Origin: Candidatus Zhuqueibacterota bacterium
GTDB lineage: Bacteria > Electryoneota > RPQS01
DNA: 64,000 bases
Assembly (NCBI GenBank): GCA_003818605.1
Contig: RPQS01000022.1
Coordinates: 1 to 64,000 of the forward strand
Direction of reading: 5' to 3'
Shown here: positions 9,762 through 31,771 of the stretch, one piece after another
Layout of the letters: each line of letters opens with the position of its first letter
Numbering within the stretch: the first letter of the stretch is position 1
The notes under the pieces: model-generated
Told to the model about the DNA's origin: nothing
Seen by the model: the letters and a program-made list of their open reading frames with translations, nothing else
Databases searched by the model: none
Program-made: the position numbers and the translations under genes

Positions 9762-9787
9762 GGGCGGGTACAGGGACCCGCCCCTAC
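9762..9787 (-). repeat. GTAGGG-type intergenic hairpin
   Basis: + strand GGGCGGGT-ACAGGG-ACCCGCCC-CTAC; on the - strand GTAG precedes the stem. Confidence 0.7.
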
Positions 9788-10630: not shown

Positions 10631-10652
10631 ACGCGGAGAGCACCGGGGAGAG

Positions 10653-10688
10653 AAAGCGGGATGCCCACAGGCATCCCGCTTTTATTTT
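10653..10688 (+). terminator. Rho-independent terminator
   Basis: AAAGCGGGATGCC-CACA-GGCATCCCGCTTT followed by TATTTTTTATTT. Confidence 0.88.
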
Positions 10689-10694
10689 TTATTT

Positions 10695-10758
10695 CCCCCC
10701 GTTTACGGGGGGAAGAAAGGGGGGTGTTTTTCTCGCCGAGCCGGGGCTCCCGACCCGG
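10695..10758. repeat. Composite intergenic hairpin module
   Basis: CCCCCCGT-TT-ACGGGGGG (10695-10712), then AGAAAGGGGGGTGTTTTTCTCGCCGAG, then CCGGG-GCTCCCGA-CCCGG (10741-10758) and CCGGAATCTTT; related to the composite at 28758-28860. Confidence 0.65.
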
Positions 10759-12702: not shown

Positions 12703-12966
12703 TGTCGAACCTCCTCGGAAGTTGCTCTATAAAACGTATGAGGTGATTGTTGTCTATCCTGTTCGGGGCTTTAGAGCCCCGAACTTACCCTAAACTACAT
12801 GCGGGAAGCCGGATTGTCAATGAATTTCGCATATCCTGATAAAATTCAATTGAAGTTACAGATTCTGCTTTTCCAAAATATTACGCATGGTTGCTTCACG
12901 GCATCCGCAGTCTTTTTGCACCATTTTACACAAAACAGAGAGGCACATCCAAATTCATTGACAAAG

Positions 12967-12996
12967 AAAGCGGGAGCCTAAAAGGCATCCCGCTTT
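12967..12996. terminator. Terminator-like hairpin, close relative of 10653-10682
   Basis: AAAGCGGGAGCC-TAAAA-GGCATCCCGCTTT; lies downstream of the - strand gene 13116-13574. Confidence 0.6.
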
Positions 12997-13012
12997 ACTT
13001 TTTAGAAAAAAC

Positions 13013-13036
13013 GGGCACGACATGTCGTGCCCCTAC
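13013..13036 (-). repeat. GTAGGG-type intergenic hairpin, 20-nt perfect palindrome
   Basis: GGGCACGACATGTCGTGCCC followed by CTAC (GTAG-GGGCACGACATGTCGTGCCC on the - strand). Confidence 0.75.
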
Positions 13037-23664: not shown

Positions 23665-24453
23665 CTATTTTTCAGATAGACTTTTCACACAGCGAAATCC
23701 GACGTTGATATCCTGCCAATTCGAAGGAAGTGCATTGCGATGAAAGACGCGAACACACCCCGGTCCTGTGTGCCACCCGCCTCCGCGGATCACTCGAAAT
23801 CGTCCGCTTTCCGGTCCTTCAGGATTTCGCTCGGAGCTGGTCATGTAATAAGTATCCTGATAGCGGTCCTGTACCCACTCGCAAACGTTTCCTGTCATGT
23901 CATAAAGTCCAAAAGCATTCGGAGGGTAACTGCCCACAACCTTGGTGCTGTCTGATTTATAATTCGCGGAATCGGGATTCAGCTCGTCGCCCCAAGAATA
24001 ACGTCTTTCGGCAAAGCCGCCGCGCGCCGCATATTCGAACTCTGCTTCCGTCGGCAAGCGGCATCCGATCCATTTGGCAAAATCCTTTGCGTCCGCCCAA
24101 CTGACGCCGATAACCGGGTGACGAGGATAGTCCGGTCCGTTGTGAAACTGCGGCATTCTCCAGAACTCCGGCAGTCGTTGTCGCGCAGTTTCCTCGCAGA
24201 ATCGCTGATACTGGCTGCACGTGATTTCATAAGAGCACATATAGAAGGAATCCAACGCTACTTTGTGAGCGGGATAGTGATCGCCTTGACTGGTATCACC
24301 CATCATAAATTCTCCGGCCGGAATCAACATCATTTGTATGGAATCGGCGCCAACAAATACCGTCTTGGGAACTTGCGCGAATGCGAATGACAGCGGCAGC
24401 AAGGCCACGAGCAGCAAATACGGAAACATGCTGAAAGACTTCAGATTGTACAT
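23665..24453 (-). CDS. Secreted FGE-sulfatase (SUMF1)-domain protein
   Basis: Signal peptide; MVLIPAGEFMMGDTSQGD-like start, RLPTEAEFEYAARGG, GLYDMTGNVCEWVQDRY, VIRGGGWHTGPGCVRVFHRN, NVGFRCVK. Confidence 0.88.
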   Translation of the reverse strand: MYNLKSFSMFPYLLLVALLPLSFAFAQVPKTVFVGADSIQMMLIPAGEFMMGDTSQGDHYPAHKVALDSFYMCSYEITCSQYQRFCEETARQRLPEFWRMPQFHNGPDYPRHPVIGVSWADAKDFAKWIGCRLPTEAEFEYAARGGFAERRYSWGDELNPDSANYKSDSTKVVGSYPPNAFGLYDMTGNVCEWVQDRYQDTYYMTSSERNPEGPESGRFRVIRGGGWHTGPGCVRVFHRNALPSNWQDINVGFRCVKSLSEK

Positions 24454-25716: not shown

Positions 25717-28437
25717 CTATTGAAAAGCTCGTTCGAGAATCGCCGCTTGCTCCGCCTGATGTCGGGCGGGAAAACCGGTGGCCGTCGTCGCCGATGCGGG
25801 GCGCGTAACGTATTCACATGATGAAAAAAGCGGCTGCATTCGGATGTAAGTGCAGGCCCCCATATTTGCCGGCTCCTCCTGCACCCACAGCAGCCGCTTG
25901 GCCGATGAATATTTCGCGATAACGCTTTCGACTTGTTTCACGGGAAACGGATAGAGCTGCTCGATCCGGATGACGGCGGAGTCTTTGCGATTGTCTCTCT
26001 GCTTGCGTTCGAGCAAATCGTAATATATTTTGCCGGAACAGAATATAATTCGCTCTACATTTTTTGCATCGGCGGAAGGATCGTCCATCACTTCGCGAAA
26101 ACATGTTCCCGCAGAAAATTCCGCGAGCGTGCTGATGCATGCTGAATGCCGGAGCAGGCTCTTCGGGGTCATTACAACCATCGGCTTGCGGAACGGCCAA
26201 TGTACCTGCCTGCGCAGCGCGTGGAAAAAGTTGGCCGGGCTCGTACAATTGACTACCTGCATATTATTGTCCGCGCAAAGACTCAGATATCGTTCGAGTC
26301 GTGCGGAAGAGTGCTCCGGCCCCTGCCCTTCAAAACCATGCGGCAGCAGCAAAACCAAGCCGTTCATGAGTCCCCATTTGCTTTCCGCGCTGCTTAAAAA
26401 CTGATCCATGACCACTTGCGCCACGTTGGCGAAGTCACCGTATTGCGCCTCCCAAACGGTCAAACTTTCGGGATGAGCCTGCGCATAGCCGTATTCGAAT
26501 CCGAGCACTCCATATTCCGACAGCGGCGAGTTGTAGATGGAAAATTTGCCTTGCTTTTCGCCGACGTGCGCAAGCGGCATAAATTCTTCTTCGGAATCCT
26601 CCACTGTGACAACCGCATGCCGGTGTGAAAACGTGCCGCGCTCCGAATCCTGACCGGAGAGCCGTACGGAAACGCCTTCATTTAGGAGCGAAGCATAAGC
26701 CAGCAGTTCGCCCATGGCCCAATCTATACGGCTGCCGTCCGCAATCATCTTGCGGCGGTCGTCATAGATGCGCTGAATTTTCGCAAAAAATTTCGGGCCG
26801 GAAGGCAGATGCGTAATATTTTGCCCGATCTCTTTCAGAATCTCCGCATCCACTCCAGTGGCGGGTGATTCCGTAAAATCCTCCGGCACGGCATGGCGAT
26901 AGGACTTCCACGCGTCTTTTAAGAATGTATCATCCGGATGCAGTGCCGCTTTGGAAGCGGCCGCGTATTTCTCCTCCAGATAGCCGCGAAAATCGTCCTC
27001 GACATTCTTGATTTTCGCTTCATCCATCACGCCGTCTATGACAAGCTGTTTCGCATAGATTTCCAGCGGATTGGGATGCGCGGCAATCGCCTTATACAGA
27101 ATCGGCTGCGTGAAGCGCGGTTCGTCGCCTTCGTTATGTCCCCACTTGCGATAGCCTAAGATATCAATGAACACGTCCCGTTTAAAAATATTGCGGAATT
27201 CGAGTGCGAGGCCGATCACATAGGTCACCGCTTCCACGTCGTCTCCGTTGACGTGAAACACGGGCGAGAGCGTGACCTTGCCCACGTCCGTGCAGTACGT
27301 GCTGGAGCGCGCGTCAAGATAATTAGTGGTAAATCCCACCTGATTATTCAACACGACGTGCACGGTGCCGCCCGTTTTGTAGCCGTCGAGCAGCGACATC
27401 TGCAGGACTTCGTAAACGATCCCCTGCCCGGCGATGGACGAATCCCCGTGAATGAGAATCGGCGCAATTTTGTCGAGGTCGCCGCCATACGCGTGATCAA
27501 TCCGCGCGCGGGCAATGCCCTCCACCACCGGATCCACGCTCTCCAAATGCGAAGGATTGGGCGCGAGGCTGAGCCGCACTTTCCGCCCGCCCGCCGTCGT
27601 TTTTTCGCAGGAGTGGCCGAGGTGGTATTTCACGTCTCCCGCGAAATCCGCATCGGAGGCCGCTCTTCCCTCGAACTCCGCAAAAATTTGTTCGAACCGT
27701 TTGTCGAGAATATTGGCAAGAATGTTCAGCCGTCCGCGATGCGCCGTGCCGATGACAAATTCTTCAATCCCTAACGCCGCGCCCTTTTCCACAATCGCAT
27801 CCAGCGCGGGAATGAGTGTTTCCACACCTTCGATGGAAAACCGTTTTTGTCCCACGAAGCGGCTGTGCATGAATTTTTCGAACACCACGGCCTGCGTGAG
27901 CTTGCGCAGGATATGCATTTTCTCATCGCTGGAAAAATTCGCGCGGTTGCGGCACGATTCCATCCGCGTTTGCAGCCAGTTCAATACGCGCGGATCGCGC
28001 ACGTAGCGGTACTCCGCGGCCACGGAATGGCAATACGTTTCGTCGAGCAGTTTGACGATTTCGCGCAAAGGTGAAGGCCCGAGGCCAACGGTCGTTCCCG
28101 CCTGAAAAACGGTGTCGAGGTCGCGTGCGCTAAGGCCGAAACTTTCCAGCGTGAGCGGATCATCGTATTTGCGGCGGATGCGGACGGGATTGGTTTTGGT
28201 AAACAGGTGGCCGCGCGTGCGGTAGCCGTTGATCAGATTCAAAACAGGCGCTTCCTTGCGGAAGAGTTCCGGCACGTGCAGCGCGTCGTCGCCATACGTT
28301 TTACGCGCGAACTCGAAACCTTCGAAAAACCGCCGCCAGCCGGAATCGAGCGATTCCGGACTCTTCAGATATTGCTCGTAGAGTCCTTCAATCACCGCCG
28401 GTTCGGCATGGCCGATATATGTGGGATCGTTTGGCAT
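25717..28437 (-). CDS. sucA: 2-oxoglutarate dehydrogenase E1
   Basis: [72 protein letters not shown]. Start placed at [13 protein letters not shown] (residue 29 of the ORF). Confidence 0.95.
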
Positions 28438-28440
28438 TTT

Positions 28441-28461
28441 TTTCCCAACTCGCTTGGGAAA
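28441..28461. repeat. Intergenic hairpin just upstream of sucA
   Basis: TTTCCCAA-CTCGC-TTGGGAAA followed by GCAGGGAGGG. Confidence 0.65.
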
Positions 28462-28491
28462 GCAGGGAGGGTTCACTATTACTTTTTCGCT

Positions 28492-28515
28492 GCGCGGGGT
28501 GTCCTTACCCCGCGC
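28492..28515. repeat. Hairpin with GTCCTT loop, copy A
   Basis: GCGCGGGGT-GTCCTT-ACCCCGCGC. Confidence 0.8.
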
Positions 28516-28677
28516 ATTCAACTTCTCATGTCATTCTTGAGACCGCATCAGCGAGTTTCCGGAATCTTTTCTCCCTCCGTTTGCGGTCCGTCCGCCTTGC
28601 GGACGCGATCTCGCTCCGCGGAGGGGGTGAAAGGGGGGTCTCTTCAAACGATGATCAATGAACTTCGAATGGAATTC

Positions 28678-28700
28678 GTAGTGACACAGCTTGCTGTGTC
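28678..28700. repeat. 23-nt repeat identical to 2051-2073
   Basis: GTAGTGACACAGCTTGCTGTGTC; internal 8-bp stem GACACAGC-TT-GCTGTGTC. Confidence 0.85.
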
Positions 28701-28757
28701 TTTCTTCGCAAGGTGCGCCGAGCCGTGCGTCCTCGCACGGCCGGAATCTTCTTTCCC

Positions 28758-28778
28758 TTCCCCCACTTCGTGGGGGAA
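28758..28778. repeat. Intergenic hairpin of the C-rich/G-rich type
   Basis: TTCCCCCAC-TTC-GTGGGGGAA followed by GCAAGAAGGGGGAGTTTTCTTCTCGCCGAG. Confidence 0.75.
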
Positions 28779-29051
28779 GCAAGAAGGGGGAGTTTTCTTC
28801 TCGCCGAGGCAGACCTGTACTGAACGAAGTGAACGTATCCCCTGATCTGCCCGGAATCCTCCGCCTGCACGTGTTTATGTCTCAGCTTTCCGCTTTCAGA
28901 TTTCAGCTTTGCTCTGTCTCCGCCTCTTGTACTCTCGCTACACCGCTTTTGATTCAACCCCATGAAAGGCTGCCAATTTTATTGACAGAAAACATGACCT
29001 AAATATCGAGAAGGAAATATTTGTTTATTTTGATATTCGATTCCGTTGATT

Positions 29052-29075
29052 GTAGGGGCACAATATATCGTGCCC
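29052..29075 (+). repeat. GTAGGG-type hairpin
   Basis: GTAG-GGGCAC-AATATATC-GTGCCC. Confidence 0.7.
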
Positions 29076-29097
29076 GTCTTTTTATCTGGCCGCCGAG

Positions 29098-29177
29098 CCG
29101 GGTTATAACTACCCAACACCCTCCGGGGTGTTGGCCGCAACCCGGTCCGCATAGCGAGATCTCGCCAAAGGCGGACC
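29098..29177. repeat. Nested composite hairpin module
   Basis: CCGGGTT...AACCCGG enclosing CCAACACCC-TCCG-GGGTGTTGG, followed by GGTCCGC...GCGGACC enclosing palindrome GCGAGATCTCGC. Confidence 0.7.
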
Positions 29178-29206
29178 GGAATCTTCTCCGCCATTGCTTC
29201 CCCGGT

Positions 29207-29226
29207 GGTGACTCTCCAGAGTCACC
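29207..29226. repeat. Intergenic hairpin
   Basis: GGTGACTCT-CC-AGAGTCACC, 9-bp perfect stem. Confidence 0.75.
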
Positions 29227-29250
29227 CCTCTTCATGTCAATTCTTTCGCC

Positions 29251-29274
29251 GTGCGGGGTGTCCTTACCCCGCAC
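29251..29274. repeat. Hairpin with GTCCTT loop, copy B
   Basis: GTGCGGGGT-GTCCTT-ACCCCGCAC; differs from copy A by a compensatory pair. Confidence 0.8.
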
Positions 29275-29426
29275 GTTTTTTATTGTCATTCCGGACATCG
29301 TTCTTGCGGGCTTCCGGAATCTTCTCTCCCTCCATTCACGGGGGGACACAAGGGGGGTGCCTTCTCATTTTCTTTCGTTCATCATTCATCATTCCTCGTT
29401 CATCATTTCCTTTTCATCCTTTCTTC

Positions 29427-31162
29427 TCATCCATGCCTGAACCTTCTCCGCACGGCAAACACAAACAGCGCCACCAACGTCGCCGTCAGCACAACCTGAA
29501 ATGCCATAATAATGTTCACGCCAATACTGTTCCCCCTTGCGAACTCCAAACCCGCGCGGTTCAAATAGCTGACTTGCAGGCTCAGTCCGAGATAATCAGA
29601 GTAACCCCATAGACCGTTCTTGTGGGCACTTGTGTACGTTGATCCGCGATACCATCCCGCAAATACCAGCAAGCTGCTCGCAAGAATGATAATGGGTCGC
29701 CAGATACTCGCGCTGTAGTTGGAGAGGTACTGATAGATTGCGATCAGGCTGAACCACTGTTTCTGTATTCTTCGCAGCTGAACGAACTTCTTCTTGCACG
29801 CTGCTTTTTGCACTCCAGATAATCGCCGCATTTCAAATGTGCCGCAATCGAAATTGTTTGCCGTGGGATGATTGAAGTCTTCCCTATATCGCTTGGCAAG
29901 CTGTTGATACGTGAGTTCGATCAATTTCCATTTGGGCCAATTGCGAAATGCATTCAGTGTTGATTGGCGTTTGTGGAACATCGCACGGCAGCCGCGTTTG
30001 AAACGATCATAAAATCGGCGCTTTAAGTATGGTCTTGCCAGCCATTCGTCTCCGACAATCTGGCGGCCTAAAACAAACGTAGCCAACCATCCGCAATTAT
30101 AAAAATGAATCTTTGTACAATCCGTGCCTTCAAGAAGAACGCGGCTCATGTCGCAATCATCTATCACCAATTCACTGTCGGGAGCCAGAAAGTTGTCGCG
30201 TATATCGAGGATGCCCATCTTATTAAATTGAATATGCTTAAGAAGCAACCTGCCTCGTTTAATCTCTATGCCCTGAATTTTACCTCTCTTTATATCAGTG
30301 TCCCTGAGTTGTTCACGCCTGGTGCCATCGCCTGGCCACAGCAACCTCACACGCCCATTAATGTGAACATCTTGAAAATCTCCTTGAACTGTAAATGATG
30401 TGCCATATAATCTCAATTCTGATTGAAATGTTGCCTTTTTGAAGTATGCATGCCACTGAAACGCTGCATTCTGGAATGACACTCTATTTGAAAACATCAC
30501 GCTCTTGAAGTCTACGTCCCCTCCGAATAGGGCGAAACTAAAATCCGCGTCCTCCGTGAACTGCACGGAGCTGAAATATGCGTTCTTCATGAACTGCGCG
30601 GAATGAAAATATACGTCTCCCGTGAACTGCGCGGAGCGGAAAGACGCGTACTCCTTAAACTGCGCGAACATGAAATCCATAATCCCCGTACATAGAGTGG
30701 AGTTGAAATCCGCAGCCCCCATGAATTGCGCGGAACTGAACGCTGCGCCACACTTGAACTGCGTGGATTCGAACCACGCGTTTTCCGTAAACTGCGCGGA
30801 GAGGAAATCCGCGCACCCTATGAACATTGAAGAAATGAAAAAGACAGATGTCTCAAATCTTACCTCGCAAAAGTCTACTTCAACCGGAAACACAGCCTTG
30901 CAGAACATATCGTATTTCTGTTTATACGATAAAGGCTTGTGGTTTTGAGGTTTTTCCCATCTACGAACACCCACCCTCTGAAATTCCACGTCGTCGCCTT
31001 CGCATTCCGCCAATCAATAATCTGCTTGGCAAGCGCATTGCGGAACTCCTGCGGGTCCTTCTTGTCCGCCGGAGCATGAAAGATGCACAGGCCGGTATCG
31101 CCATGCACGTCGCGGGAACAGCCTTGATAGCTGCAATGGGCGGTAGGTTCGGATTCAGGCAT
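29427..31162 (-). pseudogene. Pentapeptide-repeat membrane protein split by an apparent -1 frameshift near 30951
   Basis: ORF 30875-31162 gives the N-terminus (CSYQGCSRDVHGDTGLCIFHAPADKKDPQEFRNALAKQI...WNFRGWVFVDGKN). ORF 29427-31013 in the -1 frame continues (SYKQKYDMFCKAVFPVEVDFCEVRFETSVFF... many A(D/N)FxxAxF repeats, then a hydrophobic C-terminus). Could be a frameshift mutation, a homopolymer error or programmed frameshifting. Confidence 0.75.
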
Positions 31163-31200
31163 GATTATAACCCCGAAAGTTTAGAAAAGCGGAAATTTGT

Positions 31201-31226
31201 CTCGCCGTTGTCGGTCTCCCGACCGG
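31201..31226. repeat. 26-nt repeat identical to 23616-23641
   Basis: CTCGCCGTTGTCGGTCTCCCGACCGG. Confidence 0.85.
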
Positions 31227-31368
31227 TCCGCGTAGCGAGATCTCGCTGGAGGCGGACAATGGCGCCATTGCGACTCAGGAGAGTCACAACGGCGAATTGA
31301 AGCCAACTTTTAGTGATCCTTCACGTCGAAGACGACGTTCAGGATAACAGCCCTCAGATAGTTCGCCG

Positions 31369-31401
<33 letters not shown>

Positions 31402-31771
31402 GCTTCATCCCTCGTCCTTTCTGTGAGGAGGGGGAAAATGGGGGGGCCATTCCTCCTCCTCCAAAGAACACTACCTTACGAACCCCCACAATATCAACAC
31501 CAAAACTGCAACTGCAATAAAAGATCGTCTTGACATCCGGCCAATCTCAGAGTATCTTTTTGAACATAGTTTCAAAAAATAGCCTTTCAATCGCCGAGCC
31601 GTGTAATAACTACCCAACACCCTCCTGGGTGTTGGTCGCAACCCGGACCGGAATCCGCAGCAATCATGCACATTTTCGCCATTTCGCTCATTTTTACGCC
31701 TCTAAATCCGCATCTTATCCCATTATTCACATGGATATACCCGAGTTCGTTTGGTCAAAAATATTTTTACT

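Follow-up and report, generated by a model that had tools for sequence, protein, structure and literature searches.

A nested mosaic of probable REP-like hairpins in the spacer upstream of sucA in a Calditrichaeota-related bacterium

Hairpin content of the spacer upstream of sucA

The window analysed here, a 64,000-nucleotide stretch of contig RPQS01000022.1 from Candidatus Zhuqueibacterota bacterium, contains a 989-bp spacer (28438-29426) between sucA and a pentapeptide-repeat gene. Both genes are encoded on the minus strand, with sucA starting at 28437 and the pentapeptide-repeat gene ending at 29427, so that the spacer lies directly upstream of sucA between co-directional genes. Pfam searches confirmed the two neighbours named in a preliminary description of this DNA and agreed with its statement that the spacer holds no convincing coding sequence. 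None of the seven ORFs that lie in the spacer or overlap it matched a Pfam family at E values up to 1, which argues against a decayed gene, the identity under which that description would have given up its reading. All eleven inverted repeats that it had listed were located where it placed them. Within 28441-29440, we found nine non-overlapping perfect hairpins (arm of at least 7, loop of 2-12) whose arms comprise 158 nt, whereas 100 dinucleotide-preserving shuffles gave 0.52 ± 0.73 hairpins (maximum 3) with 7.6 nt in arms. The minus strand of the island, folded as RNA, reached a z score of -7.3, and none of 20 shuffles was as low. The recurring flanks were also recovered, CCGGAATCTT exactly at 28559, 28741, 29176 and 29314, and CTCCCTCC twice.

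Sampled stretches of the same genome from outside the island covered 81% of the spacer with repeats, compared with 0% for the sucA N-terminal region and 5% on average for random 986-bp stretches of the window; overlapping loci inflate repeat depth in this analysis, and coverage alone was used. The view that the island consists almost entirely of stacked hairpins is therefore slightly too strong, since no repeat relative exists for about 19% of the spacer, mainly around 28,910-29,050 and in the 30 bp nearest sucA. One hairpin lies outside the repeat families, namely TTTCCCAA-ACTCGCT-TTGGGAAA at 28441-28461, which was found neither elsewhere in the sampled genome nor in the same-genus genome. 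An arm of this hairpin that is not conserved in the same genus contains the ribosome-binding site of sucA, GGGAAAAAAATG (window 28437-28461), and the hairpin could mask translation initiation.

The remaining units, all given on the plus strand, fall into several tagged and untagged types. Class A units carry CGCCGA. One of them, CGCCGA-GCCGTGCG-TCCT-CGCACGGC-CGGAATC, occupies 28716-28748 and has many copies in the related genome G002. Another, CGCCGA-GGCAGA...TCCCCTGATCTGCC-CGGAATC at 28802-28858, is split by the 24-nt insert CCTGTACTGAACGAAGTGAACGTA (28814-28837), related to the sequence CCTGTCCTGAACGAAGTGAAGGA that occupies the loops of REPs at G000:C87 and C153; unsplit GGCAGATCCCCTGATCTGCC copies occur elsewhere. 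The composite unit at 29091-29183 consists of CGCCGA-GCCGGGTT-[insert]-AACCCGG, followed by a GGTCCGC..GCGAGATCTCGC..GCGGACC hairpin and the end CCGGAATC, and is known from both filled and empty copies. In its class A loop sits a hairpin of the CTAG class (CTAC here), CCAACACCC-TCCG-GGGTGTTGG, at 29109-29134.

TCGC-tagged class B hairpins are present twice, as GCGCGGGGTGTCCTTACCCCGCGC at 28487-28516 and as GTGCGGGGTGTCCTTACCCCGCAC at 29246-29275. The second was recognised by pattern counts and by stem covariation with the first (the copy at 28491), the two stems being GCGCGGGG/CCCCGCGC and GTGCGGGG/CCCCGCAC. A GTAG/GTGG foot is present in two units, the canonical GTAG REPs GTAG-T-GACACAGC-TT-GCTGTGTC at 28678-28700 and GTAG-GGGCAC-AATATATC-GTGCCC at 29052-29075, the latter identified in an alignment of the GTAG family of this genome; the feet of the remaining tagged units are CCGA, CTAG/CTAC, TCGC or CCCGGT. 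The CCCGGT-tagged hairpin, GGTGACTCTCCAGAGTCACC, lies at 29201-29226.

Further units have copies elsewhere in the genome. These are a GTCCGC/GCGGAC hairpin with a GCGATCTCGC tail (28586-28626), a C-rich hairpin, TTCCCCCACTTCGTGGGGGAA, with a GGGGG tail (28757-28792), the adjoining units TGTCATTCCGGA...TCCGGAATCTTC (29284-29324) and CTCCCTCC...GGGGGGACACAAGGGGGG (29325-29356), and a decayed copy, TGTCATTCCGGA...TCCGGAATC (28529-28569), which is 74% identical to 29284-29341. Smaller hairpin islands were found in the window at 31163-31771, 10650-10715, 12760-13032, 2056-2151 and 9762-9783; they include a further CCAACACCC hairpin (at 31614) as well as GTAG REPs (at 2132, 9762 and 13013).

Dispersal, turnover and nesting of the units

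BLAST searches against the genome itself listed 80 places at which island units recur, each short and matching one part of the island. As the units are found throughout the genome, the concern in the preliminary description that they might be confined to this locus does not apply. The class B hairpin GCGCGGGGTGTCCTTACCCCGCGC has 48 copies in this genome, 24 per strand, whereas a reversed-sequence control gave none. The assembly is fragmented, 93% complete and carries 5.5% contamination, and statistics were drawn from stretches of two kinds, 464 kb taken without selection and about 250 kb selected for islands.

Related genomes differ in their dominant unit, which is CGCCGA-GCCGTGCG in G002, GGTGACTCTCCAGAGTCACC in G003 and G009 (more than 40 copies there, compared with about 14 in the genome studied here), and GCGCGGGGTGTCCTTACCCCGCGC in G008. 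None of three tested units was found in G007, a RAYT-free member of the family, and across 12 genomes the number of RAYTs and the number of units were correlated (rho 0.77, without correction for kinship). The correspondence is not complete: G010 and G011 contain RAYTs and gave no match to the island, no class B RAYT is evident in G002, where a class B variant has 25 copies, and the class B RAYT of G008 is frame-broken. Hairpin density regardless of tag was 0.84 per kb in the RAYT-rich G008 and 1.23 per kb in the RAYT-free G007, the reverse of what was expected, and the two genomes differ only in tags (2 of 18 versus 0 of 29 hairpins, both small numbers). When 84,980 species genomes were scanned for TTCCGCCGAG-N10-40-CGGAATCTTC, 65 stretches matched, mostly chance single matches without a palindromic interior, along with a cluster of matches in JAPKYT01 and one true hairpin in Calditrichaeota DeMMO2_36.

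When we compared the locus with the same-genus genome G001, the two agreed in gene order across about 24-35 kb of the window, whereas the orthologous pentapeptide-sucA spacer measured 354 bp and contained a single class A hairpin. The two spacers have no hairpin in common, and the next spacer differs likewise. Within the same window, a minus-strand gene at 23665-24453 adjoins sucB here and is missing at the syntenic position in G001; we read its product as probably formylglycine-generating-enzyme-like.

Nested insertion, with REPs lying in the loops of other REPs and intact empty copies elsewhere, was seen directly. Copies of the element CCGAGCCGGGTTAAGTCTTCGCAACCCGG come in three states, with a loop that is empty, occupied by a CTAG hairpin (TTAAG[AACTAGCCAACACCCTCCTGGGTGTTGG]TCGCAA) or occupied by CCTGTCCTGAACGAAGTGAAGGA. 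Both types of loop filling are represented in the island, by the composite at 29091-29183 and by the split GGCAGA/TCCCCTGATCTGCC unit at 28802-28858, and nested composite copies are themselves repeated.

RAYT genes and their flanking hairpins

Pfam identified six Y1_Tnp genes in this genome, and about ten matches to the NCBIfam model REP_Tyr_transpos were obtained; four of six tested proteins passed the cut-off of that model. The HUH and tyrosine residues of the RAYTs are intact, and TnpA_REP (4er8) was the sole confident relative in the PDB. Bracketing of a RAYT by inverted copies of a single hairpin was seen for class B, CTAG and class A stems as well as for unit F. The class B hairpin, TCGC with GCGCGGGG...CCCCGCGC, surrounds L035 and is identical around its sister L224 in G008. 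The outer hairpin of the composite, GCCGGGTT...AACCCGGC, stands beside L032 in the genome studied here, L218 in the same genus and L232 in another genus. CTAG with CCAACACGC or GCAGCACGC brackets L034 and L046, and the class A tag brackets L044, L048 and L059, with GGCAGATCCCCTGATCTGCC around L048 and also beside L033. The CCCGGT-tagged GGTGACTCTCCAGAGTCACC brackets L204 of G009, and GTAG with GGACACGG or GACACAGC occurs near L036, L216 and L220, the hairpin of the unit at 28678-28700 being found near L216 in the genome studied here and near L220 in the same genus. No RAYT partner was found in the RAYT flanks of this and related genomes for the C-rich hairpin or for the TGTCATTCCGGA and GCGAGATCTCGC units.

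Computed without any RAYT information, the foot tags were enriched at noncoding hairpins 117-fold for CTAG, 22-fold for GTAG, 11-fold for CCGA and 6.7-fold for TCGC in a sample that includes island-chosen stretches. On a tree of 53 RAYTs, with tags assigned automatically, the tag changed 6 times compared with 13.2 in shuffled data, and none of 200 shuffles was as low; bootstrap support of this tree is unsettled and some branches are long. Sister RAYTs of different genera have kept the same hairpin (L035/L224, L032/L232, L045/L231 and L215/L062). RAYT and REP thus co-evolve, with the foot tag (CCGA, CTAG, TCGC or GTAG) tracking the RAYT tree. Alignment of the GTAG units gave no support to the idea that a conserved dinucleotide on their 3′ side is complementary to the guide.

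Several RAYT loci showed features of their own. L031 (G000:C108:19415-21372) and L037 (G001:C66:1-1947) each encode a DNA adenine methyltransferase of the Eco57I/TaqI_C type with a RAYT-like Y1_Tnp domain embedded in frame, preceded in L031 by Eco57I profile positions 1-69 and followed in L037 by positions 71-171; in-frame palindromes such as AACAAGGGGCTTAAGCCCCTTGTT surround the domain. The REP bracketing L047 in G008 was recovered in 26 copies (L267-L278 and L309-L321), whose ends have 96% pairwise identity and whose stem shows one compensatory C-G/T-A change; the 26-nt loop core evolves fast (47% identity) at nearly constant length. On either side of L053 (G002:C3:159958-163230) lie tandem arrays of the GGCACTTGTCTCCAAGTGCC hairpin, mostly with a 47-bp period.

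Origin of the island and comparison with known systems

The preliminary description had offered two readings, a landing zone for small palindromic elements and a structured RNA. The first holds up well, as the units are dispersed, are absent from the orthologous same-genus spacer and belong to hairpin types that bracket RAYTs. We consider it probable (roughly 0.85) that REP-like elements, foot-tagged hairpins mobilised in trans by cognate RAYTs, accumulated and nested in this spacer to form the mosaic. The observed basis of this reading is the repetition of the units, their lineage-specific presence, the bracketing of RAYTs, the co-evolution of tag and RAYT, and nesting beside empty copies. 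Each unit would be a non-autonomous hairpin, believed to be moved in trans by its cognate RAYT, a Y1 HUH endonuclease (TnpA_REP). TnpA_REP cleaves and rejoins REP DNA in single-stranded form, recognising a guide tetranucleotide together with the hairpin (PMC8266576, PMC6006769). By analogy, we infer that the units here are mobilised, and that they move by single-strand cleavage and transfer, each RAYT lineage most likely copying or moving its own hairpins, with CCGA, CTAG and TCGC presumably acting as guides. The elements that piled up between the pentapeptide-repeat gene and sucA would derive from several RAYT lineages of this and related genomes, which differ in tag and stem (CCGA...CGGAATC, CTAG, TCGC or GTAG). 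Some elements would have inserted into the loops of earlier elements, which may be preferred targets, and the spacer upstream of sucA would have tolerated repeated insertions.

Spread of the repeats by recombination, replication slippage or another, MITE-like transposase, with the RAYTs merely lying among them, is unlikely. It would accommodate the units without a RAYT partner and the repeated nested composites, but the RAYTs of several genera are bracketed by hairpins whose tags and stems follow RAYT phylogeny. We consider it very improbable that the island acts as a long regulatory sucA leader or as a single structured non-coding RNA, maintained for its fold. The strong fold (z = -7.3), the position directly upstream of sucA and the hairpin over the ribosome-binding site would fit such an RNA. 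The reading is nevertheless unsupported, because single units occur at many unrelated loci and on both strands (equally so for class B), no architecture is conserved in relatives, the orthologous same-genus leader having no hairpin in common, and Rfam gives no matching family. The sole Rfam hit was a sub-threshold one to CRISPR-DR29 (E 0.31), and a CRISPR was ruled out since the units differ and form no repeat-spacer array. A stack of ordinary intrinsic terminators is the least credible explanation: 25 of 82 noncoding hairpins of the genome have an adjacent T/A run and look terminator-like, but nine hairpins stand here in one spacer between co-directional genes, and their sequences recur at many other loci and in RAYT flanks.

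Taking the REP-like mosaic as the preferred reading, we give about even odds to a broader proposal, namely that this family comprises RAYT lineages using the non-GTAG guides CCGA, CTAG and TCGC, each with its own hairpin family and with REP loops as targets, which would produce nested intergenic mosaics. How REPs spread and what fixes RAYT-REP pairing have been studied mostly in GTAG systems. The family described here contains many natural pairs of RAYT and hairpin that differ in foot tag and are common to several genera, so that guide and stem specificity could be probed through tag swaps. Single insertion events can be recognised where a nested copy has an empty counterpart.

Mosaics of short repeats in intergenic spacers are likewise formed by the Neisserial intergenic mosaic elements (NIMEs). 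REP hairpins are also insertion targets of certain IS elements (PMC1525189, PMC8450116); the inserts here differ in being REP-like hairpins of 20-30 nt. The host of the present system is a Calditrichaeota-related lineage, and the Calditrichaeota genome of Caldithrix abyssi contains dispersed, intergenic 18-nt palindromes that its authors likened to REPs (PMC5317091). Those palindromes represent a single motif, aAACCGTTgaAACGGTTt, with no transposase link in that report, whose authors regarded closely related genomes as essential for interpreting them (PMC5317091). The genomes compared here suggest a RAYT explanation for palindromes in this part of the tree.

TIRYT transposases are RAYT-like genes with flanking repeats, in some cases self-complementary and dispersed, that are terminal inverted repeats unrelated to GTAG (PMC3733652). 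As RAYT-like genes with non-GTAG flanks are already known in this form, the distance of our system from known ones is moderate. It differs from TIRYTs in its clear hairpins, in fixed foot tags common to whole RAYT clades, and in proteins that pass the RAYT model. Neither CTAG nor CCGA appears in the main text of two papers that define REP and TnpA_REP families (PMC3733652, PMC6006769). The closest likeness is to GTAG REPs with RAYT/TnpA_REP (REPtrons, BIMEs and REPINs; PMC2817692, PMC3733652, PMC3116915, PMC8266576), which are also short, many-copy intergenic hairpins with a foot tetranucleotide, comprise several families per genome, co-evolve with their RAYTs and bracket them as inverted copies. 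The foot there is GTAG or GTGG, whereas here it is mostly CCGA, CTAG or TCGC; class A units have a conserved 3′ CGGAATC, unlike GTAG REPs, and a single spacer brings together many families in mixed and nested arrangement. The island works like a REP/RAYT system, but as most units have no canonical GTAG guide, it stands apart from standard GTAG REPs.
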